The notes under the pieces were generated by a model that had not been told where the DNA came from, ran no database searches, and saw nothing but the letters and a program-made list of their open reading frames with translations. DNA of 64,000 nt. Origin: Rugosimonospora africana (GTDB taxonomy: Bacteria > Actinomycetota > Actinomycetes > Mycobacteriales > Micromonosporaceae). The stretch lies in NCBI RefSeq assembly GCF_016862975.1, contig NZ_BONZ01000073.1, positions 1-64,000 on the forward strand. The letters are read 5' to 3'. Of this stretch, positions 8,367 to 58,755 are shown piece after piece (within the stretch, counting starts at the first letter, position 1; every line of letters begins with the position of its first letter). A program made the position numbers and the translations under genes.

Positions 8367-8525
8367 AGATCCGGGGCCGGACATGGCATCGAGCATGTTC
8401 CATCTCGTCCGCCGGTAGGTCATCCGTCGAGGATCGCCGTCCCGGCCAACGCGACGCAGTCCACCGCGCCCGCCCCGCTTGAGGCCAGCTCGTCCGCGGC
8501 CCCCTTCCGCGAAAGAGACATCGCT

Positions 8526-10476: not shown

Positions 10477-10806
10477 CCGCGGGTGACGGGTAGCCCGGGC
10501 TGTTCAGCAGCTTCTGGACGAGGACGCGCTGCTCGTAGATCGCCTCGGCGGTCTTTCGGCTGCGGGGCTGAGCCGGTCCGCCGGGCGGGGTTGGTTGGGC
10601 CGGTCCGCTGGACTGGTGGGCTGGGTTGGTTCGCTAAGCCGGGTTGGCTGGGTCGATCCGCTGGGCCGGTTGGTTGGGTCGGTCCCGCTGGGCCGCGCCG
10701 GCATGGGCTGGTCCGCTGGGCCGGGCTGGTTTGGCCGGCCCGCTGGACTGGTGGGCTGGGTTGGTTGGGACGGGTTGGGCTGGCGGCGGCACGGGGCGCC
10801 GCCAGC
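10477..10806. repeat. G/T-rich degenerate tandem-repeat region
   Basis: About 330 bp without a gene between two convergent genes. From about 10565 to 10790 it is made of interleaved degenerate units (GGTTGGTTGGG, CCGCTGGGCCGG, CTGGACTGGTGGGCTGG). The long open frames across it are composition artefacts. Confidence 0.7.
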
Positions 10807-11490: not shown

Positions 11491-11560
11491 GCCGGAGTCC
11501 CCCTGCCTGTGCCCGCCACCGTCGGTGTCACCATCACTGCCACTGCCACCGTTGGTGTCA

Positions 11561-11624
11561 TCGTCGTTGTCGTCGTTGTCGTCGTTGTCGTCGTTGTCGT
11601 CGTTGTCGTCGTTGCCGCCGTTGT
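11561..11624 (-). repeat. 9-bp tandem microsatellite, about 7 units
   Basis: Perfect TCGTCGTTG units on the plus strand lie between the DUF2332 gene and the preferred start of the maleylpyruvate-isomerase-like gene. If the upstream TTG start were used they would encode Asp-Asp-Asn repeats. Confidence 0.9.
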
Positions 11625-11647
11625 CGCTGTCATCGGCGCTGCCATCG

Positions 11648-12739: not shown

Positions 12740-12793
12740 TGGCTCATGATTGCATTGCGGAGTGATCCCGGAACAGCGGGGAGGAGGCACAGG

Positions 12794-13261
12794 ATGGGCA
12801 GGACCGACTACTACCGCGATCCTGACGCCCCGGCCCCGAACCTGCTGGTACCCGGTGCCTCGGCGATCGTCACCGACGAGGCCGGCCGCTTGGTCCTGCA
12901 CCGCAGGAGCGACAACGGTCTGTGGGCGCTGCCCGGCGGCGATATGGAACTGGGGGAGTCCGTGGCCGGTACAGTCGTCCGCGAGGTCAAGGAGGAGACC
13001 GGCCTCGACGTCGAGCCGTGGTACGTCGTCGGCGTGTACTCCGACCCCGAGCATGTGTTCGCGTACGACGACGGCCACGTGCGCCAGGAGTACTCGGTCT
13101 GTGTGGCATGCCGGCTGATCGGCGGCGAGCTGGCGATCAGCGACGAGTCGACCGAACTCGGCGTGTTCACGGCCGAGGAGGTCGAAGGGCTGGCCATGCA
13201 CGAACGGATTCGGGTTCGCATCCGCGATTTCCTGGCCGGCGAGCGAGGCGCCGTCCACTAG
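12794..13261 (+). CDS. NUDIX hydrolase
   Basis: Hydrolyses a nucleoside diphosphate linked to another group; 155 aa. The complete Nudix box is at about 47-69: GGDMELGESV followed by REVKEETGLDV, with the REUxEExGU metal-binding core. A strong GAGGAGG site ends 7 nt before the ATG. It is divergent from the DUF2332 gene with a 54-bp gap, so the two may share a promoter region. The substrate cannot be read from sequence. Confidence 0.9.
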   Translation: MGRTDYYRDPDAPAPNLLVPGASAIVTDEAGRLVLHRRSDNGLWALPGGDMELGESVAGTVVREVKEETGLDVEPWYVVGVYSDPEHVFAYDDGHVRQEYSVCVACRLIGGELAISDESTELGVFTAEEVEGLAMHERIRVRIRDFLAGERGAVH

Positions 13262-13903
13262 TTCGCCGCCTCGCCGGATCGCCGCGGGTGTCTCTACGGG
13301 TACGGCCTATCAGGTTCCGCCTATCAGGTTTGGTGGGCTGCTTCGCCGTCCTTGCGACCGGCTCGTGCCATCGCAGCGCCTTCGGACGGCTGTCGAGGTT
13401 GCTGACTGCGGCGGCGGTGGTAGGACAGGTCCGCTTCGTCTCTGTAGAGGTGGGGTTGGTTCGGTAAGTGCTCTTGCCGTCGCCCGTGGTGTGTAGGGCG
13501 TCGGGCGAGGCGGATGAGAGACGGCGCGGTGGCTACGGCTTCCCCGATGGCCACGACCATTTCCCGGTGGCCACGACTTTTCCCGGTGGTCACCTCCCCG
13601 GTGGTTGCGACTGTTCGGCGTCGTTTATTCGCGTCGGTGGTAGTTGCCCCACTGCTGCAGCTGCGGGCCGGAGGTGGCGGCTCCGCTGGACACGTCGACG
13701 CAGCGTCCACTATGGATCTTCATCAGGTTGTACTGGTTGTTCGTCACGGCGACGGCGCGGAACTGCTGGTCGGTGGCGGTGGGCGCGCAGGCGGGGGGAA
13801 CGGTTGGTAGACGCCCACCGCCGCTGGATATAACGGACACCGAATCGTTTGTTGGGAGAGTAGCCTAATTGAAGCCTGACGATTGATTGGGAAGGATGGG
13901 CAC
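13262..13903. other. Long intergenic region holding a ricin-domain remnant
   Basis: 642 bp with no intact gene. The minus strand at 13625-13840 carries a broken ricin-type lectin domain. The final 60 bp ahead of the sigma-factor gene are AT-richer and probably promoter. The left part has short GTGGCCACGA repeats (about 13545-13600) and nothing else I can assign. Confidence 0.6.
13625..13840 (-). pseudogene. Remnant of a ricin-type beta-trefoil lectin domain
   Basis: A 71-codon minus-strand frame whose last two thirds (13634-13780) read as one repeat of a ricin lectin domain. The pieces QQFRAVAVTNNQYNLM, HSGRCVDVSSG and PQLQQWG align with the lectin of the pectate lyase 2.5 kb away (VYNLVNVNSGLCVDVPSG, LRLQQWG). 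There is no signal peptide, no catalytic domain and only one of three trefoil repeats. It is best read as the leftover of a second lectin-bearing secreted enzyme, perhaps a partial duplication of the neighbour. Confidence 0.7.
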
Positions 13904-15208
13904 ATGGGAACCGTCGCCGATGCTGCCCCCGGGGCCGATGCGGCCGATGCCGCCGATGACCCCGCCGCTGAAGCCGATGCCGATGTCGCCCACGCCGCTG
14001 ATGCCGATGTCGCCCACGGCGCCGATGCCGCGCTCGTCCGGGCGGCGCGGGCCGGTGACGACAAGGCGCTGGCCGACCTGTTCGCCGGGCACCTGCCGCT
14101 GGTGTACAACGTCGTCGGCCGAGCGCTGAACGGTCACCCGGACACCGACGACGTGGTACAGCAGACCATGCTGCACGCCATCCAGGGGTTGCCCGGCCTG
14201 CGCGAGCCGGAGCGGTTCCGTGCCTGGCTCATCTCCATCGCGTACCGCCAGGTCCACGACCTCGGCCGGATGCGGGGCACCGCGCTGGTCCGGCAGCGCC
14301 CGCTGGACGCCCACGCGGAGGCCGCGCGCCCGGTCGACGACTTCGCCGAGGCGACCATTGTGCGGCTGGGCCTGTTCGGCGAGCGCCGGGAGATGGTCGA
14401 GGCGAGCCGGCTGCTCGGCGCCGACGGCCAGCGGGTACTCGCGCTGTGGTGCCAGGAGGTCGCTGGCTCGCTCACCCGTGCCGAGGTCGCCGGCGCACTC
14501 GGCCTGAGCGTGGCGCACACCGCCGTGCGTATCCACCGGGTGAAGAGGCAGCTCGACCTGGCCCGCACCGTGTTGCGGGCCTGGCGGGCGATGCCGCGCT
14601 GTCCGCGCCTGGACGCGGCGGCACGCGGCTTCCCCGACGGCTTCCCGGGCGGCGTGCCCAGCGGCTTGCCCAGCGGCTTCCCCGGCGGTGACGATCCGGG
14701 CCGGCTGCGGCGGCTCGGCCGGCACATCAAGGGCTGCGAGGTGTGCGGCCGAGCCGGACGCGACCTCGTCCCGGTCGAGCGGCTGTTCGCCGGAATCGCC
14801 TTCCTACCGGCGCCGCTGCGCTTGTCCGGCAAGCTGTCCGCGCTCCTCGGTGCGGCCGGCCCGACGTCCACGATGCATTCGGCGGGCCGGCCCGGCCCGC
14901 GACGCGAACCGGGCCGGCGGGCTGGCTACGGGTACCGGCCGTCGATCAAGCCGTCGACGTACTTCTCCACGTTCGTGTACCCGGTGTGGTCGAAGTCGCC
15001 GGTCGCGTCCGCCGCGCTGTTCGGGTTCAGCCCGTGCCGGGTCTCCCAGGAGTCCGGCATGCCGTCGCGGTCGGTGTCGGCCGGCGCGGTACCGCCGCTG
15101 ATCGTGCCGTACCCGTCGTTGCCCAGGCCGGTCGCCGTCTGGTGGCTCCACAGGTCGCCCGCCGTACCCAGCGACGTGACGTTCCCGATCACGTTGGCGT
15201 CCACCTGA
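13904..15208 (+). CDS. ECF-like sigma-70 factor with C-terminal extension
   Basis: An alternative sigma factor. Region 2 spans about 53-117 (LADLFAGHLPLVYNVV, then DTDDVVQQTMLHAI and RAWLISIAYRQ). Region 4 spans about 160-225 with the helix-turn-helix near TRAEVAGALGLSVAHTAVRIHRVK. A Gly/Phe/Pro repeat linker (about 241-260) is followed by HIKGCEVCGRAGRDLVPVERL, a His-Cys-Cys zinc-finger-like segment common in ECF factors with fused C-domains. No stop appears until 15208, so the last 94 codons run antisense through the end of the pectate lyase gene. The tail beyond about residue 340 is probably not a functional domain. The start at 13904 has GAAGG upstream; 13883 is an alternative. Confidence 0.75.
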   Translation: MGTVADAAPGADAADAADDPAAEADADVAHAADADVAHGADAALVRAARAGDDKALADLFAGHLPLVYNVVGRALNGHPDTDDVVQQTMLHAIQGLPGLREPERFRAWLISIAYRQVHDLGRMRGTALVRQRPLDAHAEAARPVDDFAEATIVRLGLFGERREMVEASRLLGADGQRVLALWCQEVAGSLTRAEVAGALGLSVAHTAVRIHRVKRQLDLARTVLRAWRAMPRCPRLDAAARGFPDGFPGGVPSGLPSGFPGGDDPGRLRRLGRHIKGCEVCGRAGRDLVPVERLFAGIAFLPAPLRLSGKLSALLGAAGPTSTMHSAGRPGPRREPGRRAGYGYRPSIKPSTYFSTFVYPVWSKSPVASAALFGFSPCRVSQESGMPSRSVSAGAVPPLIVPYPSLPRPVAVWWLHRSPAVPSDVTFPITLAST

Positions 15209-16809
15209 TCGCGGGGCATCGCGCCGGAGTGCGCTACCACGTTGGCGTACGCGCTCGCCGCGCTGACCGCCGGAATGCCGGCCGTCAGCGGGGACCACGG
15301 GCTGGACAGCGCGGTCGCGCCGCCGCCGAGCCCCAGTGCCGAGCCGTTCAGGCTGCCGTCCCGGTTGCTGTCCAGCAGGTTGCCGCTGTTGTAGACGGTC
15401 TGGTTGCCCATCTGGTAGTACGCGTTGCCGGCGCTGGTGGTCCGAGGCCCGGTGATGAAGTAGTTGCCGATCACGTCGTGCGTGAAGTGCCCGCTGGAGT
15501 TACCGGCGGTGTAGCCGGCCTGGTAGTCGTACACCACGTTGTTGATGTACTCGGTGTTCGCCTTCGCCAGGGGACACCGGTTGTGGGCGTTGGCGAACAG
15601 GTTGTTGTACCAGGTGTACGGGCCGGTCTCGGTGTGCGCCGCGAACTGCTGGCCGATCGGGTCCGCGTCGATCGAGTACTGCACCGTGATGTTCGTGGCG
15701 CCCACGCTGTCGACGTTGTTCCACTGCGCGAACTCGATGGACACGTGGTCGAAGATCATTTTCGTGGTGTCGAGCAGGTTGATGCCGCTCTTCTCGTTGT
15801 CCGGGTCCAGGTCGCCCTGGCGGAACCGCACGTCGCGGACGATGTCGTTGCTCGAGTTGGCGAACGACACCTCGCGGCCCATGATGCCGATCCCGCCACC
15901 CGGCGCGGTCTGCCCGGCGATGGTCAGGTTGCTCTTCGCCGAGACCGGCGAGGACAGGTTGATGTACCCGCCGACGTCGAACACGACGATCCGGTTCGAG
16001 CCGCTGACCGCGTCCCGGAACGAGCCGGTACCCGAGTCGTTGAGGTTCGTCACGTGGTACACCGTGCCGCCCCGCCCGCCGGTGGCGCTGGCACCGTAGC
16101 CCACTGCGCCCGGGAAAGCCACGACCGGCCCGGAGGGAGGCTGAGTCGTGGGTGTCGTCGTCGGTGTCGTGGTCGGTCCGGACGTGGGAGTCGTCCCGGC
16201 GACCGGGTTGAACGACCACTGCATGCGGGAGATGTCGGAGCAGGTCTCCTGGACGATCGGGTTGTTGCCGGCGGTGGAGCCGTCCAGATCGCTGACGCAC
16301 AGGCCGGTGCCGGCGCTGACCACGCGGTACTTGCCGGCCGCCGCGCCGGACGCGGTGAACGTCCACTGCTGGTTGGTCTGGCCGGCCCCGCAACCCCACT
16401 GCTGCAACCGCAGGCCGGACGTGCCCGCCCCGGACGGTACGTCGACGCACAGCCCGCTGTTGACGTTGACCAGGTTGTATACGCCGGAACCGACCTGCAC
16501 CACGCGCCACTGCTGCCGGGTGGCGGACTGCGAGCACGCCGCCTGCTGGAGCAGCGCGCCGCCGGCCGTGGAGCCGGACACCACCTCGACGCACTTGCCG
16601 CTGGCACCCGCCGCGAGTTCGTACACGCCGCCGCCCACCGGAGTGCTCGCCGCCGCCGACAGCGCCTGTGACGACAGCGCCTGCGAGGGCAGCGCCGCCG
16701 CCACCACCGCGGCCGGTACCGCCACGACCGCGACGGCGACCGCCGCCAGGCTCCACACTCTGGCCCGGGAACGCACCCGGTCTGTTCGAGACCTCGCCTG
16801 TCGAGACAT
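14926..16809 (-). CDS. Secreted pectate lyase (PL1-like) with ricin-type lectin
   Basis: A 627-aa secreted enzyme that should depolymerise pectin. After a Sec signal (about 15-50, ending in ALPSQALS) come a ricin beta-trefoil lectin (about 54-193, with three Q-x-W blocks: RQQWRVV, NQQWTF, RMQWSF) and a Thr/Pro linker. The right-handed beta-helix pectate-lyase domain follows (about 216-540), with SNLTIAGQTAPGGGIGI, DIVRDVRFRQGD and FDHVSIEFAQWN as family landmarks. The C-terminus holds a thrombospondin-3-like calcium loop (DTDRDGMPDSWE). A GAAGGA site precedes the ATG. It converges on and overlaps the sigma-factor frame by 283 bp. Confidence 0.88.
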   Translation of the reverse strand: MSRQARSRTDRVRSRARVWSLAAVAVAVVAVPAAVVAAALPSQALSSQALSAAASTPVGGGVYELAAGASGKCVEVVSGSTAGGALLQQAACSQSATRQQWRVVQVGSGVYNLVNVNSGLCVDVPSGAGTSGLRLQQWGCGAGQTNQQWTFTASGAAAGKYRVVSAGTGLCVSDLDGSTAGNNPIVQETCSDISRMQWSFNPVAGTTPTSGPTTTPTTTPTTQPPSGPVVAFPGAVGYGASATGGRGGTVYHVTNLNDSGTGSFRDAVSGSNRIVVFDVGGYINLSSPVSAKSNLTIAGQTAPGGGIGIMGREVSFANSSNDIVRDVRFRQGDLDPDNEKSGINLLDTTKMIFDHVSIEFAQWNNVDSVGATNITVQYSIDADPIGQQFAAHTETGPYTWYNNLFANAHNRCPLAKANTEYINNVVYDYQAGYTAGNSSGHFTHDVIGNYFITGPRTTSAGNAYYQMGNQTVYNSGNLLDSNRDGSLNGSALGLGGGATALSSPWSPLTAGIPAVSAASAYANVVAHSGAMPRDQVDANVIGNVTSLGTAGDLWSHQTATGLGNDGYGTISGGTAPADTDRDGMPDSWETRHGLNPNSAADATGDFDHTGYTNVEKYVDGLIDGRYP

Positions 16810-16997
16810 CGCCTCATCCTTCTGTCCGCCGACTGTCAACGGCCGCTCCCCGTACGGCCGGAGACCCGCCGCGCTGCGGGCCACACCGCAGTAGACGGTC
16901 CGGGGACGGCGCGGATTACCGATAACGGTGCGGAAAGTGGCCGACGGGCCCGACGCGTCTCCGCCGACGGTCAGGCGCGCCGTGACCCACGCCTCCG
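16810..16997. other. Intergenic region upstream of the pectate lyase
   Basis: 188 bp between two leftward genes. It should hold the pectate-lyase promoter, but I see no clear -35/-10 pair and no CGGTT-type LacI operator like those near the rhamnose genes. Confidence 0.4.
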
Positions 16998-18209
16998 TCA
17001 CTCGGGGTTGGTCGGGCGCTGCCGGTGACTGGTCGCGTTGCTGGCTCTCGACCGGACCCGCAGCTGATCGGTGATCGCGATGCCCAGCAGCACGGCCGCG
17101 GCGTACGCCGCGACGCCCAGCGGGGGCAGAAACAGGATCACGGGGGGAGCCGCCACGATCAGGAACGCCAGCCAGAAGACCCGGGTCCAGGACCAGCGGT
17201 CGAACACCTCGTACTCGAACGTGATCCGGCCGATCATGAACAGCGCGGGACCACCGATGATGACGCCGCCCCACCCCAATGGCGTGTCCCCCGTCGGCCG
17301 CGGGATGACCAGGTCGAAACCGGCTGCCATGGTGATCACCCCAGTCACCATGGTCAGGTGGGTGTACGGCGCCCAACGCGCGGACCGCCCGGGGCTGCGT
17401 ACGGTCACCATCTGCAGGATCGAGCCGGCCCGGTTCACGTAGATCTGCCACAGCACCACGGTGGTGACGAACGCGGTCAGCGCGGCCAGGGTGTGCATCC
17501 CGGTGCGCGGCACGCGGCTGTATCCGAGGATCGCGACCAGGATCATGTCGCCCAACGCAAGGATCATGAACTGCTGGTAGCGCTCACCGAGGTGCTCGCC
17601 GGCCTGGTCGTACTGCTCCTTGGGTACCCGGCCGATCCACGGCGTCGGGTAGCGGAGGCCGCCGGAGACATAATCCACCGCCAGCGCCACGCCCCACAGG
17701 ATGAACCGGGTCCGCTCACCGGACAGGCCGCCGATCAACCACGGTACGGAGGTCAGGGAGAACCAGAACAGGAACCGCCCGGCGCGCTGGGCCGCGACGC
17801 GCTCGCGCCGGTACAGCACGGACACCAGCAGGACCCCGCGCCCGAGGTGGATGGCCACGTTGGACACCGCGAACACGAGCCCGGACTTCCCGAACGCGTT
17901 CGGCGTGGCGACCGCCATCTGGCTGATGCCCAGCATCACGCCGGCCAGCACCACCTGGATCGGCCGTTGCTGAGGATCGTAGAAGTCGGTCACCAGCGCG
18001 GTGATGGTCCAGATCCACCAGATGGCCATCAGCGGCAGGATGGCCTTCGCGGCACCGGACCAGGTCGGTTCGCGGCTCAGCGTCAACGAGGTCAGCGCGA
18101 GCGCCCCGACGAACACCAGATCGAAGAACAGTTCCAGCAGGGTCGCCCGCTGCGGCCCGCCGCCCGCACCGCGGCGCAGCGGTGGCGGCTCGACGCTGCC
18201 CGGTCTCAT
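16998..18209 (-). CDS. Low temperature requirement protein A (LtrA) family
   Basis: A polytopic membrane protein of 403 aa. The family's opening motif is present: ATLLELFFDLVFVGALA (about 22-38). At least ten hydrophobic spans follow, and the conserved GERYQQFMILALGD segment is near 205-218. LtrA proteins were named from a Listeria cold-sensitive mutant, and their biochemical activity is unknown. It stands alone between two non-coding stretches. The ATG at 18209 lacks a strong Shine-Dalgarno site. Confidence 0.85.
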   Translation of the reverse strand: MRPGSVEPPPLRRGAGGGPQRATLLELFFDLVFVGALALTSLTLSREPTWSGAAKAILPLMAIWWIWTITALVTDFYDPQQRPIQVVLAGVMLGISQMAVATPNAFGKSGLVFAVSNVAIHLGRGVLLVSVLYRRERVAAQRAGRFLFWFSLTSVPWLIGGLSGERTRFILWGVALAVDYVSGGLRYPTPWIGRVPKEQYDQAGEHLGERYQQFMILALGDMILVAILGYSRVPRTGMHTLAALTAFVTTVVLWQIYVNRAGSILQMVTVRSPGRSARWAPYTHLTMVTGVITMAAGFDLVIPRPTGDTPLGWGGVIIGGPALFMIGRITFEYEVFDRWSWTRVFWLAFLIVAAPPVILFLPPLGVAAYAAAVLLGIAITDQLRVRSRASNATSHRQRPTNPE

Positions 18210-48964: not shown

Positions 48965-48987
48965 CTGTCCAGTAGACAGGTACGTAC
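48965..48987. promoter_or_regulatory. GntR operator candidate
   Basis: CTGTCCAGTAGACAG (48965-48979) has 5-bp inverted arms around CAGTA and abuts GTACGTAC (48980-48987). It lies 22 bp before the GntR gene, a usual autoregulatory place. Confidence 0.55.
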
Positions 48988-49008: not shown

Positions 49009-49713
49009 ATGCCAGCCAGATATCGGGAGGTCGCCGACCGGCTGTCCGAGGAGATCCGGGCCGGGCGGCTGGCAAACGGCCAGCGCCTGCCCGGTGAGGT
49101 CAAGCTCGCCGAGCAGTTCTCGGTCAGCCGGTCGACCGTCCGCCAGGCGCTCGCCTGCCTGCAGGACGCCGGCCTCGTCGAGACGTGGACCGGCGCCGGG
49201 TCCTTCATCACGTACGACGGGGAAGTGCTCAACGAGCGCGTCGGCTGGTCCCGTGCCCTGGCCCAGCACGGCGTGCGGACCAGCACCCGGCTGGTCCGCC
49301 TCGACCGTGTGGCCGACCCGGAACTGGCCGGCGCGCTGAGCCTGCCGGCACCGGACTTCCTGGCGGTGGACCGCATCCGGCACATCGAGTCCGGCAGTGC
49401 CATCTCGTACGAGCGCAGCCGGCTGCCCTGGAGCCCGTCGTTCGAGGCGGTGCTGCGCGACGGTCTGGTCGACGGGTCGCTGTCGCGGACCATGCACCGG
49501 CACGGCATCCACCCGGTCGGCGGCCGGGAAACCCTGTCCCTGGCCAGGCTGGACGCCGACCAGGCCCGGCTGCTGGAACGCGACGAGGGCGCGCCGTTCC
49601 TGCACACCGCCCGCACCGTGTTCGTCGCCGGAGGCGGGGTCGCCGAACGGGTCACCAGCCTGCTCGATCCCGACCACTTCCGCTTGGAAACCACCTTTGG
49701 AGAACTGCGATGA
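49009..49713 (+). CDS. GntR family regulator (HutC type)
   Basis: 234 aa. The N-terminal winged helix (RYREVADRLSEEIRAGRL, then SVSRSTVRQALACLQDAGLV) binds DNA. The C-terminal UTRA domain (about 80-225, with IRHIESGSAISYERSRLPW and ARTVFVAGGGVAERV) senses a small ligand. CAGGAG lies 8 nt before the ATG. It heads a four-gene operon with an ADP-ribosylglycohydrolase-like enzyme, an NCS1 permease and a PfkB kinase, and should repress it until the imported nucleoside-like ligand is present. E. coli YegW sits in an analogous cluster. Confidence 0.9.
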   Translation: MPARYREVADRLSEEIRAGRLANGQRLPGEVKLAEQFSVSRSTVRQALACLQDAGLVETWTGAGSFITYDGEVLNERVGWSRALAQHGVRTSTRLVRLDRVADPELAGALSLPAPDFLAVDRIRHIESGSAISYERSRLPWSPSFEAVLRDGLVDGSLSRTMHRHGIHPVGGRETLSLARLDADQARLLERDEGAPFLHTARTVFVAGGGVAERVTSLLDPDHFRLETTFGELR

Positions 49714-49768
49714 GCGAGCGCCAGCCAGGTGAGCGCGGCGAAGCCGCTCCGACCGTTAGGGGCCGTCC

Positions 49769-50818
49769 GTGAGGGGCCGTGACCGCGCGTACGGCGCCCT
49801 GCTGGGTCTGGCGGTCGGCGATGCCCTGGGGATGCCCACCCAGTACCTGCCCCGGGAGACGATCGCCGCCCGGTACGGCGTGCTCGACGGGTTCCGGCCC
49901 GCCCCCGACGACAACGTGATCAGCCGGGGGCAGCCCGCAGCCCGGGTCACCGACGACACCGACCAGGCGGTCATCCTCGGCCGGCTCCTGATCGACGGCC
50001 GGGGCCGGGTCGACCAGGTGCGGTTCGCGCGGGAACTGCGCGACTGGCACAAGCGGATGGTCGGCGCCGGCTCCGCCGACCTGCTCGGGCCGTCCACCCT
50101 GCGCGCGCTGGACCAGCTCGACCGGGGCGTACCGCCGGAGGAGAGCGGTCGCTGGGGCGACACCAACGGCGCCGCCATGCGCATCGCCCCGGCCGGCATC
50201 GCGTTCTCGGTGCGGCCGCTGGACGAGCTGGTGTCCCGGGTGGCGCAGGCCGGCCGGGTCACCCACAACACCGGCATCGCCATCGCCGGCGCCGCCGCGG
50301 TGGCCGCCGCGGTCAGCGCCGGCATCGACGGCGCCGACCTGTCCGGTGCGCTCGACATCGCGGTACGGGCGGCCGAGATCGGCGGGCGTCTCGGGCACTA
50401 CGTCGCCGGTGCCGACGTGGCCAGCCGGATCGCCTGGGCGCGCGGACTGGTCGCCGGCCGCGACCCCGGCGAGGCGCTGGACCTGATCTACCGCCTGGTC
50501 GGCGCGGGCGTCGCCACCCAGGAGGCGGTACCGGCCGCCCTGGCCATCTGCTCGTTGTTTCCCGGCGACCCGTTCGCGGTCACCCGGTACGCGGCCAGCC
50601 TGGGCGGCGACTGCGACACGATCGCGGCCATCGCCGGCGCGGTCTCCGGCGCGGTGTACGGCGCCGGCAGGTTCCCCGCGACGATCGTCGAGCAGCTCAC
50701 CGCCGCCAACCCCGACCTGCACCTGTCCGATCTCGCCGACCGGCTGCTCGGCCTGCGCGGCGGCACCGATGCCCGGCCCGATCCCGGCGGTACGCCGCCC
50801 GAGCCGGGCCTCGGCTGA
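49769..50818 (+). CDS. ADP-ribosylglycohydrolase family enzyme (YegU-like)
   Basis: 349 aa. All hallmark metal-binding motifs of the ARH fold are present: GALLGLAVGDALGMP (about 9-23), VTDDTDQAVILG (about 60-71), RWGDTNGAAMRIAPAG (about 129-144) and SLGGDCDTIAAIAGAVSGAV (about 277-296). These enzymes hydrolyse N-glycosidic ribose bonds using two Mg ions. Placed between a regulator, a base/nucleoside permease and a ribokinase-type kinase, it more likely cleaves a small N-riboside than ADP-ribosyl-protein. The GTG at 49769 follows the GntR gene by 55 bp. Confidence 0.9.
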   Translation: MRGRDRAYGALLGLAVGDALGMPTQYLPRETIAARYGVLDGFRPAPDDNVISRGQPAARVTDDTDQAVILGRLLIDGRGRVDQVRFARELRDWHKRMVGAGSADLLGPSTLRALDQLDRGVPPEESGRWGDTNGAAMRIAPAGIAFSVRPLDELVSRVAQAGRVTHNTGIAIAGAAAVAAAVSAGIDGADLSGALDIAVRAAEIGGRLGHYVAGADVASRIAWARGLVAGRDPGEALDLIYRLVGAGVATQEAVPAALAICSLFPGDPFAVTRYAASLGGDCDTIAAIAGAVSGAVYGAGRFPATIVEQLTAANPDLHLSDLADRLLGLRGGTDARPDPGGTPPEPGLG

Positions 50819-50832
50819 ACAAGGGAGTCGTC

Positions 50833-52443
50833 ATGTCCACTCCACTCTCCGAGGAAGTCCTCACCACCGGGGTCCGCGCCGACCGCCCGGGCAGCATCGA
50901 GACCCGGGGCATCGAGCCGGTACCCGACAGCGAGCGCGGCGGCGGCGCACTCGGCCTGTTCTGGACCTGGTTCGCGGCCAACATCGGCGTCATCGGCATC
51001 ACCGAGGGCGCCGCACTGGTCACCTTCAAGGGCCTGAACGCCTGGCAGGCGCTCGTCGCCGCGCTGGTCGGCTCGGCGATCTCGTTCCTGCTCGTCGGCC
51101 TGCTGTCCATCACCGGCAAGCGCGGCGGCGCGCCCGGACTGACGCTGTCCCGGGCGGTGTTCGGCACGCACGGCAACGTCGGCCCGACCATCGTGTCCTG
51201 GCTGACCTTCGTCGGCTGGGAGACCATCACCTGCACCACCGCCGCCTACGCGCTGGTCGACCTGCTGGGCAGGGCCGGGCTGCGCAGCGGCGACACGCTC
51301 ATCGTGATCACCCTCCTGGTGACCGTGGTGATCGCCGCGTCGGTGGGCCTGTTCGGCCACGCCACCATCATGTGGGTACAGCGCTGGCTGACCTGGATCT
51401 TCGGTACCCTCACCCTGGTCGTCATCGGATTCCTGATCGACAAGGTGCACTGGCACCAGGTTGCCCACCAGCACCCGGGTTCGGCCGCCGCGCTGATCGG
51501 CGCGATCGGCTTCATCGCCGCCGGCACCGGCATCGGTTGGCTGTCGGCCGGCGCGGACTACGCCCGCTACCTGCCCCGGCGGGTCCGCGGCTCGGCGCTC
51601 GTATCGGCGACCACGATCGGTTCGGTTCTCCCGCTGACCGTCATCGTCACGATGGGCGCCCTGCTGGCGGTCAGCGATCCGTCGCTGGCCAGCGCGAACG
51701 ACCCGGTGGCCGCGATCGGCGGGCCGCTGCCCGGCTGGCTTTCGGTGCCGTACCTGATCGTCGCGGTGATCGGCCTGATCGCCAACGCCGACCTGTCGAT
51801 GTACTCGTCCGGGCTCAACCTGATCACCGCGGGCATCCGCATCCGGCGTACCGCCGCGGTCGCCGTGGACGCCGTACTGATCGTGGCCGGTGGCCTCTAC
51901 ATCACCGTCATCGCGAAAAACTTCTACGGCACCTTCACCACGTTCCTGACCCTGCTGGCCATCCCGATGACGGCCTGGGCGGCGACCATCGGCATCGACA
52001 TGATCCGCCGGCGGGAGTTCGACCGGGAGGCGCTGCTGGACCGGCGGCGCGGTAGCCGGTACTGGTACACCGGCGGGATCCGCTGGGTAGCGCTGCTGCC
52101 CTGGCTGCTCGGCATCGCGATCGGGCTGCTGTTCACCACCGCGTCCAACGGGCAGGACGTCTGGTTCTCCGGCCCGTGGGCGGGCACCTGGCTGGGCGTC
52201 AACGGTCTGGGCTGGCTGGCCTCCGGCGCGGTCAGCGCCGCGCTGTACGCCGTGCTGGGACTGCGCTCGGCCGCCGGCGGCCTCTCAGTCGACGGCCTCT
52301 CCGCCGGCGCGGGAACGTCCGGCGCGGGGACGTCCGGCGGACCGGTGCTGGCACCGGCCTCCGCGCCAGCGGGTGCGTCCACGCCAGCGGGTGGGCCGCT
52401 GCCGGCCGGCGGTCCGGTGCCGAACGCCGGGACCGACCGGTGA
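50833..52443 (+). CDS. NCS1 family nucleobase/cytosine-type permease
   Basis: A 536-aa membrane carrier with about 12 spans, of the cytosine/purine/uracil/thiamine/allantoin (NCS1) family. After a hydrophilic N-terminus the first span is FWTWFAANIGVIGITEGAAL, followed by the family segment GLTLSRAVFGTHGNVGPTIVSWLTFVGWETI (about 97-128). The last 60 residues are Gly/Ala/Pro/Ser repeats in place of a normal tail. It begins 14 bp after the ADP-ribosylglycohydrolase gene with an AAGGGAG site. E. coli uses an MFS-type carrier (YegT) in the comparable place, so this is a different importer for a likely similar substrate. Confidence 0.88.
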   Translation: MSTPLSEEVLTTGVRADRPGSIETRGIEPVPDSERGGGALGLFWTWFAANIGVIGITEGAALVTFKGLNAWQALVAALVGSAISFLLVGLLSITGKRGGAPGLTLSRAVFGTHGNVGPTIVSWLTFVGWETITCTTAAYALVDLLGRAGLRSGDTLIVITLLVTVVIAASVGLFGHATIMWVQRWLTWIFGTLTLVVIGFLIDKVHWHQVAHQHPGSAAALIGAIGFIAAGTGIGWLSAGADYARYLPRRVRGSALVSATTIGSVLPLTVIVTMGALLAVSDPSLASANDPVAAIGGPLPGWLSVPYLIVAVIGLIANADLSMYSSGLNLITAGIRIRRTAAVAVDAVLIVAGGLYITVIAKNFYGTFTTFLTLLAIPMTAWAATIGIDMIRRREFDREALLDRRRGSRYWYTGGIRWVALLPWLLGIAIGLLFTTASNGQDVWFSGPWAGTWLGVNGLGWLASGAVSAALYAVLGLRSAAGGLSVDGLSAGAGTSGAGTSGGPVLAPASAPAGASTPAGGPLPAGGPVPNAGTDR

Positions 52444-53393
52444 GCGCGCCGCGGCCCGGCCGGCTGCTGCTGGTGGGCAGTGTGCTGGTCGACATCCGGA
52501 TGGCGGTACCGGCGCTGCCCGAGCGCGGCGGCGACCGGTTGGCCGACCGTACCGACGTGCAGACCGGCGGCGGCTTCAACGTCCTGGTCGCGGCGGTACG
52601 CAACGGGATGCCGGCGGCGCTGGCCGGTCGGCTCGGAGCCGGGCCGTTCGGCCGGCAGGCCCGCGAGGACCTGGACGCCGCCGGCATCCCGGTGCTGCTG
52701 GACGCCGACCCGAACGCGGACACCGGGTTCTCGGTCACGCTGATCGAGCCGGACGGCGAGCGGACGTTCGTCACCAGCCCGGGCGCGGAGTCGGTGCTCA
52801 CCGCCGAGCGGCTCGCCCCGGTCGAGGCCCGGCCGGACGACGCGGTCTACGTGTCCGGGTACGACCTGTGCTACCCGCGCAGCGGGCCGGCCATCGCCGG
52901 ATGGCTGCGCGGGCTGCCACCCTCCGCGCTGCTGGTGTTCGATCCCGGCCCAGTGCTCGACCAGATCCCCGCCGGCCCGCTGGACGCCGTGCTCGCCCGT
53001 ACCGACGTGTTGACCCTCAACCAGCGCGAGACCGCGCTGCTGGCGGCAACCGACGACCCGGCCGCCGCGGCGCGCACGCTGGCCGCCCGGCTGGGCAGGG
53101 CGGGCTCGCTCATCGTGCTGCGTCGGGGTCCCGCGGCGACCGTGGCGGTGTGGACCGCGCGGCCGGGGGAGTTGCTGCGGGTACCGGTGCCGGCGGTGAC
53201 CGCGGTGGACACCACCGGGGCCGGCGACACGCACACCGGGGTGCTGATCGCGGCACTGCACGCGGGCCACGACTGGCCGGAGGCGCTGCGCCGGGCCGGG
53301 GTGGGCGCGGCCATCTCGGTCACCCGGGACGGCTCGGCGACGGCGCCCGCGGGCGCCGACATCGACGCGTTCGAGGTGTCCTCACGCCGGTAG
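52440..53393 (+). CDS. PfkB family sugar kinase (ribokinase type)
   Basis: 317 aa. PfkB signature 1 is QTGGGFNVLVAAVRNG (about 40-55). Signature 2 is DTTGAGDTHTGVLIA (about 257-271), whose Asp in GAGD is the catalytic base. The GTG start overlaps the permease stop by 4 bp. It is expected to phosphorylate the ribose or riboside released by the ADP-ribosylglycohydrolase-like enzyme. No nucleobase-processing enzyme is in the operon, so the fate of the base is open. Confidence 0.9.
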   Translation: MSAPRPGRLLLVGSVLVDIRMAVPALPERGGDRLADRTDVQTGGGFNVLVAAVRNGMPAALAGRLGAGPFGRQAREDLDAAGIPVLLDADPNADTGFSVTLIEPDGERTFVTSPGAESVLTAERLAPVEARPDDAVYVSGYDLCYPRSGPAIAGWLRGLPPSALLVFDPGPVLDQIPAGPLDAVLARTDVLTLNQRETALLAATDDPAAAARTLAARLGRAGSLIVLRRGPAATVAVWTARPGELLRVPVPAVTAVDTTGAGDTHTGVLIAALHAGHDWPEALRRAGVGAAISVTRDGSATAPAGADIDAFEVSSRR

Positions 53394-53595: not shown

Positions 53596-54783
53596 GTGGC
53601 CAGCAGCCGGGTGTTGCGATGGGTCGGCCTGCTGGGCGTCGCGCTCGCGCTGCCCGTGCTGGTGCCGCCGGCCGCGCCCGCGGTCGCGGCCGACCAGTGC
53701 CGGCCACCCGCGACCGCCCGGCTCACCCAGCGGTCGTGGGCGCAGAACCGGCTGGACGTCGAGCGGGTCTGGCCGCTGACGACCGGGCTGGGCCAGCGGG
53801 TCGCCGTCGTGGACACCGGGGTGGACGGGAAGCACCCGCAGCTGCGCGGTCACGTCACCACCGGGTACGACGTGCTGACCAACACGTACGACGGCGACTC
53901 CGACTGCCACGGGCACGGCACCTTCGTCGCCGGCATCATCGCCGCACAGCCAGCGTCGGGCATCGGCTTCACCGGGGTCGCGCCGGGCGCGACGGTTGTG
54001 CCGATCCGGGAGACCAACACCGACACGGTGGCCGTGGACGACCTGGCCAATGCGATCTCGGCGGCGGTCCAGTTCCCGGGGGTCGACATCATCAACGTGT
54101 CGACCACCACCACGGGCGACGATCCGCGGCTACGCGCGGCGGTCAACCGGGCCCTCGCCGCGAACATCGTGGTGGTGGCCGCCGCCGGCAACGACGCGCA
54201 GAACGGCGACGCGGCCAAGTATCCGGCCGTGTACCCGGGCGTGCTCGCCGCCGGCGCGATCGACTCGGCCGGCAACCGGGCCGGCTACTCGGAGACCGTC
54301 GGCATCGGGGTGGTGGCGCCCGGCCAGGATCTGATCAGCACCGGGGCCGGCGGCACCGGGCTGGTCGCCAGCGCGCAGGGCGGCACGAGCTTCGCGGCGC
54401 CGTATGTGGCCGGGGTGGCGGCGCTGGTCCGGGCGTACCACCCGAACCTGTCCGCCGCCCAGGTGGTGCACCGGATCGAGGCCACCGCCGACCATCCGGC
54501 CGGCGCGCTGCCCGACCGGCAGTTCGGCTGGGGCGTGGTGGACCCGTACGCGGCGGTGACCGCCGTACTGCCGGAGGAGGGGCAGCAGCCGCTGGCGGCG
54601 CCGTCCCGGTCACCGGTGCCGCTGGCCGCGCCGGCCGGGCCGGCCGAACCCGATCGGTCAGGCACGGCGTACGCGCTGGCCGGCGCGGCGCTCGGAGTGG
54701 TGCTGCTGGGCGGCGCGACCGCGGTGCTGATCCCGCTGGGCCGCCGCCGTGGCTGGCGCTCGGCGCTGCGCGACGCCCGCTGA
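53596..54783 (+). CDS. mycP: Mycosin: type VII secretion subtilisin-like protease
   Basis: A membrane-anchored S8 serine protease of the ESX system, 395 aa. Signal peptide about 8-34. The catalytic triad is complete: Asp in AVVDTGVDG (about 75), His in CHGHGTFVAG (about 107) and Ser in GGTSFAAPYVAG (about 273). A C-terminal Pro-rich linker leads to one membrane span (about 360-383) and a basic cytoplasmic tail, the mycosin layout. The GTG at 53596 follows GGGAAGGG. It converges on eccC with a 24-bp gap. Confidence 0.92.
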   Translation: MASSRVLRWVGLLGVALALPVLVPPAAPAVAADQCRPPATARLTQRSWAQNRLDVERVWPLTTGLGQRVAVVDTGVDGKHPQLRGHVTTGYDVLTNTYDGDSDCHGHGTFVAGIIAAQPASGIGFTGVAPGATVVPIRETNTDTVAVDDLANAISAAVQFPGVDIINVSTTTTGDDPRLRAAVNRALAANIVVVAAAGNDAQNGDAAKYPAVYPGVLAAGAIDSAGNRAGYSETVGIGVVAPGQDLISTGAGGTGLVASAQGGTSFAAPYVAGVAALVRAYHPNLSAAQVVHRIEATADHPAGALPDRQFGWGVVDPYAAVTAVLPEEGQQPLAAPSRSPVPLAAPAGPAEPDRSGTAYALAGAALGVVLLGGATAVLIPLGRRRGWRSALRDAR

Positions 54784-54807: not shown

Positions 54808-57800
54808 TCAGAGCGCTTTCGCGGTCTGTACCAGCCGGGTGCCGTGCCGCCGGTGGTGCAGCCGGCCCCGGCCCGGGACCAGCCGCATGGGCGCGACGTT
54901 GCCGATCAGCGGCCCCTCCTCGGGGCTGCCGGACAACACGATCCCCGGGGTGCCCAGCTCGCGCAGGCGCTGCAGGACCGGCTCGTACATGGACCGGCCG
55001 GCACCACCGGTGGCCCGGGCCAGTATCACGTGCAGGCCCAGATCCCGGCTCTGCGGCAGCACGTCCAGCAGCGGCTGCAACGGGCTGCCGGTCGGCGTGA
55101 CCAACAGATCGTAGTCGTCGACCAGCAGGTACAGCTCGGGTCCGGTCCACCAGCTGCGGTCGCGGAGCTGTTCCGGAGTGACGTCCGGGCCCGGTACCCG
55201 CTGAAGCATCGCCTCGCGGACGTCGCGCACGGTCGACTCGGCCGACTGCACCGAGTGCGCGAACGCGATCAGGTGGCTGGATGGTACCGCCTCCAGCAGC
55301 GTGCGCCGGGTGTCGATCACGATGATCCGGGCCCGGTCCGGCGGCATGGTGCGGACCACCTCGGCCGCGACGGTGCGCAGCAGGTTGGACTTGCCCGACT
55401 CGGTGTCGCCGAAGATGAGGAAGTGCGGATCCTGGGTGAAGTCGAGCGTCGCCGGGCCGAGGTCCTCGCCGGACAGGCCGATCGCCAGCCCCGCCGCGCC
55501 CGCCGGTACCGCGGCCTGAAGCTCGGCCAGCGGCAGCAGTTCGGGCAGCAGCCGCACGGGCGGGGCCGGCGCTCCGGGCCAGGTGCTGGCGACCGAGTCG
55601 ACCAGCGCCCGCACCCCGTCGGCCAGATCGTCCACAGTGGACTTGTCGTCGAGCCGGGGCAGCGCGGCGAGGAAGTGCAGGTTTTCCTTGATGATCCCGC
55701 GCCCCGGTACGCCGGCCGGGACGTTCGCCGCGGCGTGCCGGTTGACCTCCGACTCGAACGGGTCGCCCAGCCGCAGCTCGTAACGGGTGCCGATGGTGTC
55801 CCGCAGCGCGGGGCGCAGCTCCGCCCAGCGGCCCGCGGTCAGCACCACGTGCACGCCGTAGGACAGGCCGCGCACGGCGAGGTTGGTGATCGCCGGTTCC
55901 AGCGCCTCGTACTCTCCGCGCAGGATGCCCCAGCCGTCCACCACGAGGAACACGTCGCCGTACGGGTCGTCGTCCGGCCGCGCCCGCCGGTATGCCGCGA
56001 CCGAGTCGATGCCCCGCTCGGCGAAGGTCTTCTCCCGATCGGTGAGCAACGCGGTCAGCTCGGCGACGATCCGCCGGACGAGATCGGTCTGCAGCCGGGT
56101 GGCCACCGCGCCGACGTGCGGCAGGCCGGCGATCGAACCGAGCGCACCACCGCCGAAGTCCAGGCCGTAGAACTGTGCCTCGCGCGGCGTGTGGCACAGC
56201 GCGAGACCGGTGATCAGGGTGCGCAGCAGGGTGCTCTTGCCGCTCTGCGGTGCGCCGACGATGACCACGTGGCCGGCCGCGCCGGACAGGTCGGCGGCCA
56301 GCGGCGCGCGGCGCTGCTCGAACGGCAGGTCGACCTCGCCGAGCGGTACCTGCAGCCGGCCGTGCAGCCGGGCATCGGTGCACAGCCCGCGGTCCGGGTC
56401 GAGGTGCAGGTTGGGCAGCAGGGCGCCGATCGTGGTCGGCGCACCCAGCGGGGGCAACCACACCTGGTGCGCCGGACCGCCCTGCCCGCGCAGCCGGGCC
56501 ACGACCAGATCCAGCACGCGTGGCGCGCCGGCGGTCTCGGCGGCGGGCGCGGCCACCGGCGCCGGCTGCTGGGCCGGCTCGGCGAGCGGGATCTCGTCGA
56601 CCACGTACGGGACGAGGTGCCTGGGCACCTCCCGCCGGACCTGCTCCACTGTGGACGGCTGCTCGTACGGGCCGGAGACGTACGCGGCCTTGAACCGCGT
56701 CATCGACGTCACGTCGAACTTGAGGTACCCGTGTCCGGGCTCGCTGGGCAGCGTGTGCGCGTCCGGTACGCCGAGCACCGTCCGGCTCTCGCTGGCGGAG
56801 AACGTCCGCAGGCAGATCCGGTATGACAGGTGGGTCTCCAGGCCGCGCAGCCGCCCCTCCTCCAGCCGCTGCGAGGCGAGCAGCAGGTGGACGGCGAGAC
56901 TGCGGCCGAGCCGTCCGATCATCACGAACAGCTCGGCGAACTCCGGCTTCTGGGTGAGCAGCTCGGTGAACTCGTCGACCACCACGAGCAGGCTGGGCAG
57001 CGGGGTCAGCGCCGCCCCCTGGGCCCGGGCCCGCTCATAGTCGAGCACCGAGCTGAAGTTTCCGGCCGCGCGCAGCAACTCCTGCCGCCGGACCATCTCG
57101 CCGCGCAACGCATCCTGCATCCGATCGACCAGCGGCAGTTCGTCGGACAGGTTGGTGATGACCGCGGAGACGTGCGGCAACTCCTCCAGGCCGAGGAACG
57201 TGGCACCGCCCTTGAAGTCGGCCAGCACGAAGTTGAGCTGCTCAGGCGAGTGCGTGATGGCCAACCCGAGCACGAGGGTGCGCAGCAGCTCGCTCTTGCC
57301 TGAACCGGTCGCGCCGACGACCAGTCCGTGCGGGCCCATCCCGCCCTGCGCGGCCTCCTTGATGTCCAGTTCGATCCGGGCGCCGTCCTCGCCGACCCCG
57401 ATCGGCACCCGCAGCCGGTCGCGGTTGGCGCGCGGCTGCCAGACCGTGCCGGGGTCCAACGCCCGCAGGTCGCCGGTGCCCAGCAGCGCCGGCAGGTCGT
57501 ACCGGGTGGACAGTGGCGCGCCGTCGTCGGCCTGCGTGCCGCTGATCCGCAACGCGGTGAACTGCCGGGCCAGCGCGTCCACCTGGGCGAGGGACAGCCG
57601 GTCCGGGGCGCCGACCGCGGTGCTCCTCTCCTCGCCCCCGCCGGTCGGCCGGGTCACCCGCTCGATGGTCTCCGCGCTCACCCGCAACCGCAGCACGTGC
57701 TGGTCGGTCGCCCGGCCGAGGATGCCCTGCACGTCCAGTACCGTCACGCCCTGCGCGTCACCGACCGCGAGCTGGCAACCGAGCGGCACCCGGCCGCCGT

Positions 57801-58755
57801 CGAGGACGACGAGCACGTGCGCCCGGTCGGAGCCGGCACCCGGCCGGAACCGGGCCCGCTCGGCCAGATCCTCACCGAGCAGCGCCTCGATCTGGCCGAG
57901 ATCGTTGCGCACCATGCGGATCGGACCGGCGGCGTCGCGCCGCTGCGGGTGCAGCGCGTGCGGCAGCCACTTGACCCAGTCCCACGCCGCGATCCGGCCG
58001 GTGTCCGCGCAGATCGCGACGCGCAGGTCCTCGGGGGAGTGGAACGTGGCCGCCTGGGCGAGCATGGCCCGGACCAGTCCGCTGACCGCCTCCGGTTCGC
58101 CGTCGAACGCGACCCGCGCGTAGTTGCGCAGCGCCACCGCGATCGGCATCTCCGGCACCGTGTTGTGCGCGCCGACGAACCGGCGCAGCGCGCCGGCCGA
58201 GATCGGATCCAGGTCTTCGATCGGCTTGGTCTCCGGTGGCACCAGCCGGACCGCCAGCCGTTGCGATCCGGTGGCGACCCGGACATCGGCGAAGTCGGGA
58301 TCGCCGGGGCGCCGCTCCCAGCGCCGGGCGCTCATCGCGAATGACCACAGGCTGTCCGGGTCGGGATGGTTCCACAACTGCGCCTCGCGCTGCTTGGCGC
58401 CCGCGTCCCGGATCCGCTTGCGGGCCTGGGTCAGGTAACGCAGGTAGTCGCGGCGGTCGCCGTCCAGCTTGCGGCCGCGGTCGCCGCTGTTGCGGCCGAA
58501 CTGGCTGACCACCATGCCGAACGAGGACAGCCCGTACATCGCGCTGGCCGCGTAGGTCAGCGGGGTGGCGCCCGGGCCGGCGTACATGAAGACCATCGCG
58601 CCGGCCCCGCCGATCATCGGCAGGTACAGCAGGTACTGGCCGACCCCGCCGCTGGCCGCCTCGGCCATGTCCGGCGGCGGTTCCAGCATGAACTCGCCGT
58701 GCGGGGCCTGGGGTCCGGCCTGGCGCGGCAGGCGTCGCGGCGGCGTGGCGTTCAC
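54808..58755 (-). CDS. eccC: EccC, type VII secretion ATPase (FtsK/SpoIIIE type)
   Basis: The motor of the ESX secretion machine, 1315 aa with EccCa and EccCb fused. Two N-terminal spans (about 38-78) and a DUF/stalk region precede three ATPase domains. Their Walker A motifs are GATGSGKSELLRTLV (about 480), GAPQSGKSTLLRTLI (about 842) and GDTESGKSNLLRTVA (about 1112); the first has Walker B LVVVDEFTELL. The presence of a Lys in all three P-loops suggests none is obviously dead. Start GTG 58755. It is divergent from eccD across 164 bp. Confidence 0.94.
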   Translation of the reverse strand: MNATPPRRLPRQAGPQAPHGEFMLEPPPDMAEAASGGVGQYLLYLPMIGGAGAMVFMYAGPGATPLTYAASAMYGLSSFGMVVSQFGRNSGDRGRKLDGDRRDYLRYLTQARKRIRDAGAKQREAQLWNHPDPDSLWSFAMSARRWERRPGDPDFADVRVATGSQRLAVRLVPPETKPIEDLDPISAGALRRFVGAHNTVPEMPIAVALRNYARVAFDGEPEAVSGLVRAMLAQAATFHSPEDLRVAICADTGRIAAWDWVKWLPHALHPQRRDAAGPIRMVRNDLGQIEALLGEDLAERARFRPGAGSDRAHVLVVLDGGRVPLGCQLAVGDAQGVTVLDVQGILGRATDQHVLRLRVSAETIERVTRPTGGGEERSTAVGAPDRLSLAQVDALARQFTALRISGTQADDGAPLSTRYDLPALLGTGDLRALDPGTVWQPRANRDRLRVPIGVGEDGARIELDIKEAAQGGMGPHGLVVGATGSGKSELLRTLVLGLAITHSPEQLNFVLADFKGGATFLGLEELPHVSAVITNLSDELPLVDRMQDALRGEMVRRQELLRAAGNFSSVLDYERARAQGAALTPLPSLLVVVDEFTELLTQKPEFAELFVMIGRLGRSLAVHLLLASQRLEEGRLRGLETHLSYRICLRTFSASESRTVLGVPDAHTLPSEPGHGYLKFDVTSMTRFKAAYVSGPYEQPSTVEQVRREVPRHLVPYVVDEIPLAEPAQQPAPVAAPAAETAGAPRVLDLVVARLRGQGGPAHQVWLPPLGAPTTIGALLPNLHLDPDRGLCTDARLHGRLQVPLGEVDLPFEQRRAPLAADLSGAAGHVVIVGAPQSGKSTLLRTLITGLALCHTPREAQFYGLDFGGGALGSIAGLPHVGAVATRLQTDLVRRIVAELTALLTDREKTFAERGIDSVAAYRRARPDDDPYGDVFLVVDGWGILRGEYEALEPAITNLAVRGLSYGVHVVLTAGRWAELRPALRDTIGTRYELRLGDPFESEVNRHAAANVPAGVPGRGIIKENLHFLAALPRLDDKSTVDDLADGVRALVDSVASTWPGAPAPPVRLLPELLPLAELQAAVPAGAAGLAIGLSGEDLGPATLDFTQDPHFLIFGDTESGKSNLLRTVAAEVVRTMPPDRARIIVIDTRRTLLEAVPSSHLIAFAHSVQSAESTVRDVREAMLQRVPGPDVTPEQLRDRSWWTGPELYLLVDDYDLLVTPTGSPLQPLLDVLPQSRDLGLHVILARATGGAGRSMYEPVLQRLRELGTPGIVLSGSPEEGPLIGNVAPMRLVPGRGRLHHRRHGTRLVQTAKAL

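Follow-up and report, generated by a model that had tools for sequence, protein, structure and literature searches.

In the window analysed here, a 64,000-nucleotide stretch of Rugosimonospora africana DNA (contig NZ_BONZ01000073.1, positions 1 to 64,000), four consecutive genes encode a GntR/HutC-type regulator, a hydrolase of the ADP-ribosylglycohydrolase (ARH) fold, an NCS1-family permease and a PfkB/ribokinase-family kinase. The observation is solid and larger than first noted: the four-gene operon is real and widely shared among bacteria, and its retention across distant phyla argues that the arrangement is not due to chance. The most useful new fact is a Glu-to-Gln change in the ARH, at a position that is catalytic in characterised members of the superfamily. 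The best explanation, which we hold to be somewhat probable though unproven, is riboside salvage; the operon would then be a variant of nucleoside and riboside salvage operons in which an ARH-fold hydrolase of a Gln-type subfamily replaces the nucleoside hydrolase. ARH enzymes have been studied as erasers of ADP-ribosylation. If the explanation is right, a carrier-swapping operon family (four phyla, plasmids too) that uses ARHs in small-molecule salvage would widen the roles of this fold, the orphan E. coli genes yegTUV would gain a testable function, and the Glu and Gln branches of the family would offer a natural comparison for testing the role of the catalytic glutamate.

A widely shared four-gene operon

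The window ARH served as the query in a scan of 84,980 species genomes; the best 80 of at least 545 confirmed stretches were taken as relatives and compared. A PfkB gene lies beside the ARH gene or is fused to it in 76 of these 80: it stands just downstream in 75, and in Arsenicicoccus piscis (L023, 6821-9130) both proteins are read in a single 769-residue open reading frame (ORF). Among the remaining four, L036, L075 and L081 end at contig ends, and L065 shows no recognisable PfkB in 15 kb. This survey had been proposed in an earlier note made from the DNA alone (hereafter the original prediction), and it bears out the linkage seen there. An NCS1 gene occurs within 5 kb of the ARH gene in 64 of the 80 relatives, and in L025 the two are read as one ORF; a same-strand GntR gene is close by in 60, with a 4-bp GntR-ARH overlap in 33 of the 57 adjacent pairs. 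The hosts belong to Actinomycetota, Pseudomonadota and Chloroflexota, plus one Bacillota assembly, and an ARH-permease-kinase set is also present on plasmids of Lactiplantibacillus and Limosilactobacillus. The distribution is patchy: counting the window's own genome in each case, a close ARH (E at most 1e-60) was found in 5 of 41 genomes of relatives and in at least 3 of 296 genomes of the phylum, where seven candidates per genome were scored.

The R. africana genome (11.1 Mb in 219 contigs, the window lying on contig C73) contains nine places that match the ARH family PF03747, five of which lie in four PfkB-bearing clusters (C73, C107, C102 and C21). The cluster on C107 (L090, within 1000-17000) is a second GntR-ARH-NCS1-PfkB copy, with -4 bp overlaps throughout and an ARH that is 54% identical. 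Two ARHs stand in tandem on C102 (L126), and one small gene separates ARH from PfkB on C21 (L127); the ARHs of both clusters are distant relatives, accompanied by a ribokinase-like PfkB and sugar-type ATP-binding cassette (ABC) binding proteins, and the ARH-PfkB linkage thus extends beyond the subfamily of the window ARH. The C102 cluster also has a CoA-transferase family III gene. Elsewhere, an ARH relative that is 65% identical (L092, G036:C1:5083734-5084708) has in-frame stops (one TAG, one TAA) and is a decayed copy. In three Acidimicrobiaceae loci (L038, L047, L056) a gene for NAD(P)H-hydrate repair, with YjeF_N and dehydratase domains (scanned in L038), lies divergently to the ARH-PfkB pair, with an additional PfkB gene and NCS1 nearby.

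In the window itself, the ORF coordinates given originally were recovered both by an ORF check and by a gene caller that relies on codon usage and was trained on the four genes, and the reported spacings of 55, 14 and -4 bp hold as well (Table 1). The Pfam matches of all four genes exceed curated cut-offs. The regulator matches PF00392 (71.9 bits) and PF07702 (UTRA; 50.3 bits), in line with its first assignment to the HutC type, and shows 31% identity with YegW/GgaR of E. coli across 198 residues. We take the operon to end at 53393, since its neighbours are a divergent UbiA-family gene upstream and, downstream, a subtilase gene 202 bp away and an FtsK/SpoIIIE-type ATPase gene on the other strand. 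These last two genes, a subtilase-family protease (53596-54783) and a large FtsK/SpoIIIE ATPase with three matched stretches (54808-58689), presumably represent a type VII secretion region (mycosin, EccC-like), to judge by resemblance.

Table 1. Features of the operon, with positions in the window
Feature	Position	Strand	Remarks
Putative operator TGTCCAGTAGACA	48966..48978		palindrome, -43 to -31 relative to GntR start
GntR/HutC-type regulator	49009..49713	+	234 aa
ARH-fold hydrolase	49769..50818	+	349 aa, GTG start
Gln25 codon	49841..49843	+	position of catalytic Glu in ARH1/ARH3/DraG
Metal-ligand motif TDDT (61-64)	49949..49960	+	invariant 81/81, window included
His166	50264..50266	+	H in 80/80 relatives; by motif the pyrophosphate-contacting His of ARHs
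Metal-ligand motif GGDCDT (279-284)	50603..50620	+	D281, D283, T284 invariant 81/81
NCS1-family permease	50833..52443	+	536 aa
PfkB/ribokinase-family kinase	52440..53393	+	317 aa, GTG start
Kinase motif GGGFN (GG-GFN)	52566..52580	+	one residue short of ribokinase GGKGAN
Catalytic GAGD (260-263)	53217..53228	+	invariant in 30/30 aligned

A GntR site had been placed at 48965-48987, and a palindrome does exist there, although it pairs four of five outer positions and so falls under the threshold applied in counting. TGT..ACA palindromes with all five outer positions paired were found 5' of the GntR gene in 12 of 53 loci, whereas shuffled sequences gave a mean of 1.0 and at most 5, four of the 12 being an identical Amycolatopsis site and hence not all independent; the threshold was missed by 41 loci, including the window. 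The sequence TGTCTAGACA is identical upstream of GntR in two Streptomyces and three Chloroflexota loci. The recurring palindrome fits autoregulation by GntR, without demonstrating it. In E. coli, the repressor GgaR/YegW acts on yegTUV (PMC10819704).

Active sites, carriers and phylogeny

The hydrolase matches PF03747 with 214.3 bits (gathering cut-off 26.2) and, at 1e-3, no other family; no nucleoside hydrolase-family model matched any of the four operon proteins in the Pfam search. The closest solved fold to its AlphaFold2 model (predicted local distance difference test (pLDDT) score, 92.6) is MJ1187 (1t5j; Z 39.7, root-mean-square deviation (rmsd) 2.2 over 300 residues, 34% identity), while ARH3 and DraG give Z of about 36 and characterised ARHs overall about 31-36. 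Its scores are far under the cut-offs of the DraG equivalog TIGR02662 (89.6 vs 337.05 bits) and of the Tri1 model (69 vs 490 bits). The original prediction credited the enzyme with all metal motifs, which stands for the Asp and Thr ligands—D62, D63, T64, D281, D283 and T284 are invariant in the window and the 80 relatives—but it overlooked the nearby catalytic Glu, which is Gln25 here. This Glu (Glu25 in hARH1, Glu33 in LchARH3) is described as absolutely conserved and catalytic in characterised ARHs (PMC6309922, PMC8319183). Its position was assigned through alignment with DraG and MJ1187, the equivalence to ARH1 and ARH3 being drawn by that route. Gln occupies it in the window ARH and in every one of the 80 relatives, a set somewhat biased to Gln, as one of six alternative scan patterns contained that residue. 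His166, in turn, falls at the TH motif when the sequence is aligned with DraG and MJ1187; a pyrophosphate-contacting role is described for ARH1 His163 and ARH3 His168, to which it would correspond by motif.

Gln is also present in plasmid ABC-type and Paraburkholderia ARHs. Glu is found in DraG, a Thermus protein and MJ1187; in the YegU, Pantoea, Plesiomonas, Lactiplantibacillus, Limosilactobacillus, Listeria, Enterococcus and PnrA-linked rows; and, outside the module clade, in a Yersinia ARH and five of the six own-genome paralogs aligned. Because Glu-bearing rows thus include YegU-type, phosphotransferase system (PTS)- and PnrA-linked, Yersinia and outside proteins, Gln is probably the derived state. 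The human ARH3 mutant E41A has severely reduced activity (PMC8319183). The same authors suggest that alpha-NAD+, an N-glycoside, may not need the initial nucleophilic attack and that a contact between Glu41 and the pyridine amide is feasible (PMC8319183), so that Gln is compatible with an N-riboside substrate. They also report choosing E41A, for the alpha-NAD+ complex too, because it stops cleavage while crystals form (PMC8319183), which speaks against the Glu being dispensable. A search of the text of PMC8141533 for the catalytic glutamate returned nothing.

The kinase exceeds the PF00294 cut-off (125.8 bits), and the GAGD motif named as catalytic in the original prediction is confirmed at residues 260-263. 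Its model (pLDDT 92.2) is closest to E. coli ribokinase (Z 37.2, rmsd 1.9 over 294 residues), ahead of aminoimidazole riboside kinase (Z 33.9) and pseudouridine kinase (Z 33.0), and ribokinases are the nearest families by profile as well; its score against the ribokinase equivalog TIGR02152 is 100.1 bits, below the cut-off of 299.65. In the pocket, two residues with known roles in ribokinase differ, Leu standing at the Asn14 position and Lys43 being deleted.

The carrier differs from one form of the module to another. The window permease exceeds the cut-off of PF02133 (Transp_cyt_pur; 180.7 bits), scores 101.6 bits against the NCBIfam NCS1 model TIGR00800 (cut-off 353.1) and matched no protein of solved structure in a sequence search at 1e-3. 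In E. coli and Pantoea, the carrier is a nucleoside symporter of the major facilitator superfamily (MFS; PF03825, nucleoside H+ symporter), and a PnrA-type ABC carrier (PF02608) adjoins a 43%-identical ARH, with no recognisable PfkB in the stretches searched. Six of the 80 loci have a PotD-like ABC system (119.7 bits; PotD model cut-off 582), and in five of the six (L011, L012, L013, L015, L043) the module is followed by a glycosidase of MGH1-like type (PF22422; the scan covered L015). In one Listeria and one Enterococcus raffinosus record, a beta-glucoside-type PTS lies directly 5' of the ARH gene; the Enterococcus variant, with EIIA, EIIB and EIIC confirmed, rests on one of five E. raffinosus records. 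No PfkB was annotated or found at 1e-3 in these two stretches (14.8 and 16.8 kb), and the same search detected two control kinase loci. The Listeria record (L139, 5084-8927) has a PRD regulator, the PTS and the ARH in a row, followed by a catalase gene, an arrangement that we take to resemble bvrABC.

Phylogenetic trees bear on whether this combination arose more than once. In a kinase tree of 57 rows, the module kinases form a 38-row clade (99/99) of 7 YegV-type and 31 window-type sequences, which excludes 17 other own-genome PfkBs (drawn from 26 other places, some of them fragments, with the C102 kinase left out), one other Mesorhizobium PfkB and a Yersinia PfkB. The ARH tree, of 52 rows, places the window-type, YegU, Lactiplantibacillus, PnrA-linked and PTS-linked ARHs, the last on a long branch (2.18), in a 45-row clade (89/79), or a 46-row clade (98/86) with Yersinia added; its six outgroup paralogs sit on very long branches, and it is the weaker of the two trees. 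The proposal that the set had been assembled at least twice is therefore not supported, and we reject two independent assemblies with the caveat of those ARH outgroup branches. As both kinase types share one clade and the ARHs another, the module probably arose once and then swapped carriers. A Yersinia frederiksenii plasmid (L145, 5150-11726), whose kinase and ARH lie outside the main module clades, carries in a row genes for GntR, ARH, a SIS-domain protein, PfkB, a phytase-like esterase and a UshA-type 5'-nucleotidase.

Proposed riboside salvage and its alternatives

Under riboside salvage, GntR/UTRA would repress the operon until the substrate or an intermediate releases it, and the NCS1 permease, to judge by its family and by the carriers that take its place elsewhere, would import a small riboside. 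The ARH-fold enzyme, whose fold and metal ligands are in evidence, would hydrolyse the bond to ribose C1 with a two-Mg site; the PfkB kinase would add a phosphate, and the sugar would leave as ribose 5-phosphate. Much the same chemistry (import of an N-riboside, cleavage of its N-glycosidic bond and phosphorylation of the sugar) had been proposed originally, and it gains in part from the present comparison: the co-inheritance of ARH and PfkB, even as a fusion, and the nucleoside-type carriers (PF03825, PF02608) fit the import and breakdown of a riboside. A purine nucleoside phosphorylase gene beside the permease gene in two Planosporangium loci (one of the two scanned) also speaks for salvage. 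Several points weigh on the other side. A measured activity of any module member was not found in the sources consulted. The kinase misses the ribokinase cut-off and is one residue short in GGKGAN; the PotD-like ABC systems, mostly with an MGH1-like glycosidase, are unlike nucleoside use; and neither L065 (1 of 80) nor the PnrA-linked locus shows a recognisable PfkB in the stretches searched. ARH1 and ARH3 are reported to cleave alpha linkages (PMC9738213), whereas the common nucleosides are beta. Finally, the sole experimental study of a relative that we found ties YegW to ADP-glucose (PMC10819704).

The order of the two enzymatic steps is the closest question. Cleavage followed by phosphorylation of free ribose is slightly favoured, because the kinase is nearest to ribokinases by profile and fold and because the uridine operon of Corynebacterium glutamicum has the same gene set. 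The reverse order, in which the kinase would phosphorylate the intact riboside at O5 and the ARH would then hydrolyse the riboside 5-phosphate, has a precedent in pseudouridine kinase and glycosidase, and we consider it a serious contender that falls somewhat short of probable. The Listeria and Enterococcus raffinosus ARHs follow a PTS, with no PfkB found; since a PTS both imports and phosphorylates, whatever reaches these enzymes should already carry a phosphate, although these ARHs sit on a long branch and may act on another one. A PnrA-linked ARH, conversely, has no PfkB in the stretch searched, and ABC systems leave what they import unphosphorylated. The invariance of His166 would suit a phosphorylated substrate, but the residue may be kept simply since the superfamily binds ADP-ribose; likewise, the kinase pocket is unlike that of ribokinase at the Asn14, Lys43 and GG-GFN positions, yet its fold remains nearer to ribokinase than to either riboside kinase.

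Other readings change the substrate itself. Ribose is an assumption, and the hydrolase might cleave another glycoside such as an O- or N-glucoside, as the alpha-glucosidase-related MGH1-like genes of five ABC-type loci (one scanned) and the beta-glucoside-type PTS of two Firmicute loci could suggest; we give this little credence, as ribose is what the characterised ARHs act on, ribokinase is the nearest match of the kinase and several loci have nucleoside-type carriers. For E. coli yegWTUV, a role in handling ADP-glucose or some other sugar nucleotide, with an effect on glycogen, has been proposed; that the module has this role appears improbable to us. Binding of GgaR/YegW to the yegT promoter is relieved by ADP-glucose, not by glucose or ADP, and yegTUV mRNA rises about 30-fold in a ggaR deletion (PMC10819704). 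The alternatives tested in section 3.6 of that report were, however, glucose and ADP only, and the section makes no mention of nucleoside, ribose or ADP-ribose (PMC10819704); moreover, no glycogen or sugar-nucleotide family is prominent among the recurrent neighbours of the 80 loci, where only a minority of the neighbours were assigned to families. A role in reversing protein or nucleic-acid ADP-ribosylation (DraG/ARH3-like), with the kinase an incidental neighbour, would agree with the PF03747 match and the fold, but it is highly improbable given the kinase linkage and co-inheritance, the distance from the DraG and Tri1 cut-offs, and the replacement of a Glu whose mutation to Ala so impairs human ARH3 (PMC8319183).

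A narrower proposal is that the Gln-type ARHs are dedicated free-riboside hydrolases that gave up the Glu because the N-base they split off is cationic or leaves readily, the whole module, including yegTUV, serving the salvage of pyridine ribosides (nicotinamide or nicotinate, perhaps alpha). An ADP-ribosylhydrolase would then have been turned into a vitamin or carbon-source enzyme; we find this unlikely. On Pantoea plasmids, the module adjoins nicotinate-degradation-like genes in 9 of 15 module-bearing records (8 of P. dispersa and At-9b). The pathway assignment is presumptive, the dioxygenase alone being named for a pyridine in the Pantoea record, and the juxtaposition looks like one insertion. 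In two Lactiplantibacillus plantarum records, genes for an NrtR-like protein, a nicotinate phosphoribosyltransferase and a nicotinamidase-like protein precede the module. Within the gap lies a piece of about 105 bp, in most cases annotated as a DUF87 protein, that recurs in each of the 28 further records listed from 143 matching ones, and no operator shared between the nicotinate cassette and the module was found; for these two reasons, the cassettes were probably joined by recombination. Both modules belong to the Glu branch, outside the window's own clade, and tblastn with the Pantoea and L. plantarum nicotinate-related proteins gave no homologue at 1e-8 in the 80 loci. In view of the late juxtapositions, the Glu branch and the lack of such genes near the 80 loci, a pyridine riboside was not adopted as the substrate. 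An isochorismatase-like gene present in 19 of the 80 loci (21 with L093 and L094) has nicotinamidases among its best solved matches. Nicotinamidases bind metal through a D-x-H...H motif, seen in the aligned solved nicotinamidase; these ligands are replaced in the isochorismatase-like protein though the D-K-C triad is kept, and its identification as a nicotinamidase was rejected. A cysteine hydrolase with a D-K-C triad would suit a base that carries an amide or ureido group.

Comparison with known systems

The closest known system is E. coli yegTUV with yegW, which the original prediction described as the same functional set with an unrelated carrier. Its regulator, ARH and kinase are homologous to those of the window (31, 36 and 30.5% identity), its ARH and kinase genes are adjacent, and the proteins fall into common clades. 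The carrier differs, YegT being a nucleoside:H+ symporter (PMC10819704) of the MFS where the window has NCS1 (PF02133); the regulator gene is convergent and at the other end; YegU keeps the catalytic Glu; and YegV has GGCALN in place of GG-GFN. Among the matches listed from Creative Commons-licensed literature, screened by title and start of abstract, no paper on the module besides PMC10819704 was found; a genome announcement names the three yeg genes (PMC10652928). Likewise, none of the papers listed for the bvrABC comparison dealt with Listeria, and a search on the Bacteroides rus ribose locus gave no paper.

The functional set, though not the sequence, is also matched by the uridine operon of Corynebacterium glutamicum, presumably uriR-rbsK1-uriT-uriH. 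That operon comprises a ribokinase, a uridine transporter, a uridine-preferring nucleoside hydrolase and a local repressor (PMC3146418), and thus shares with the window a repressor, a carrier, an N-ribohydrolase and a ribokinase-family kinase; its hydrolase is a nucleoside hydrolase, whereas that of the window is ARH-fold. Pseudouridine kinase and glycosidase likewise pair a PfkB kinase with an enzyme that cuts at ribose C1, and they are the model for phosphorylation first; their glycosidase belongs to another family, and only the kinase folds were compared. Among the ARHs, MJ1187, a ribosylglycohydrolase of Methanocaldococcus, is the closest solved structure, with Glu at the catalytic position. 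ARH1, ARH3 and DraG share with the window enzyme the fold, the Asp/Thr metal ligands and the TH motif, but the window enzyme has Gln for the catalytic Glu, falls below the DraG cut-off and is encoded in an operon with a permease and a kinase. In favour of salvage, alpha-NAD+ is an N-riboside that both human enzymes, ARH1 and ARH3, cleave in vitro; they do not cleave beta-NAD+ (PMC9738213).

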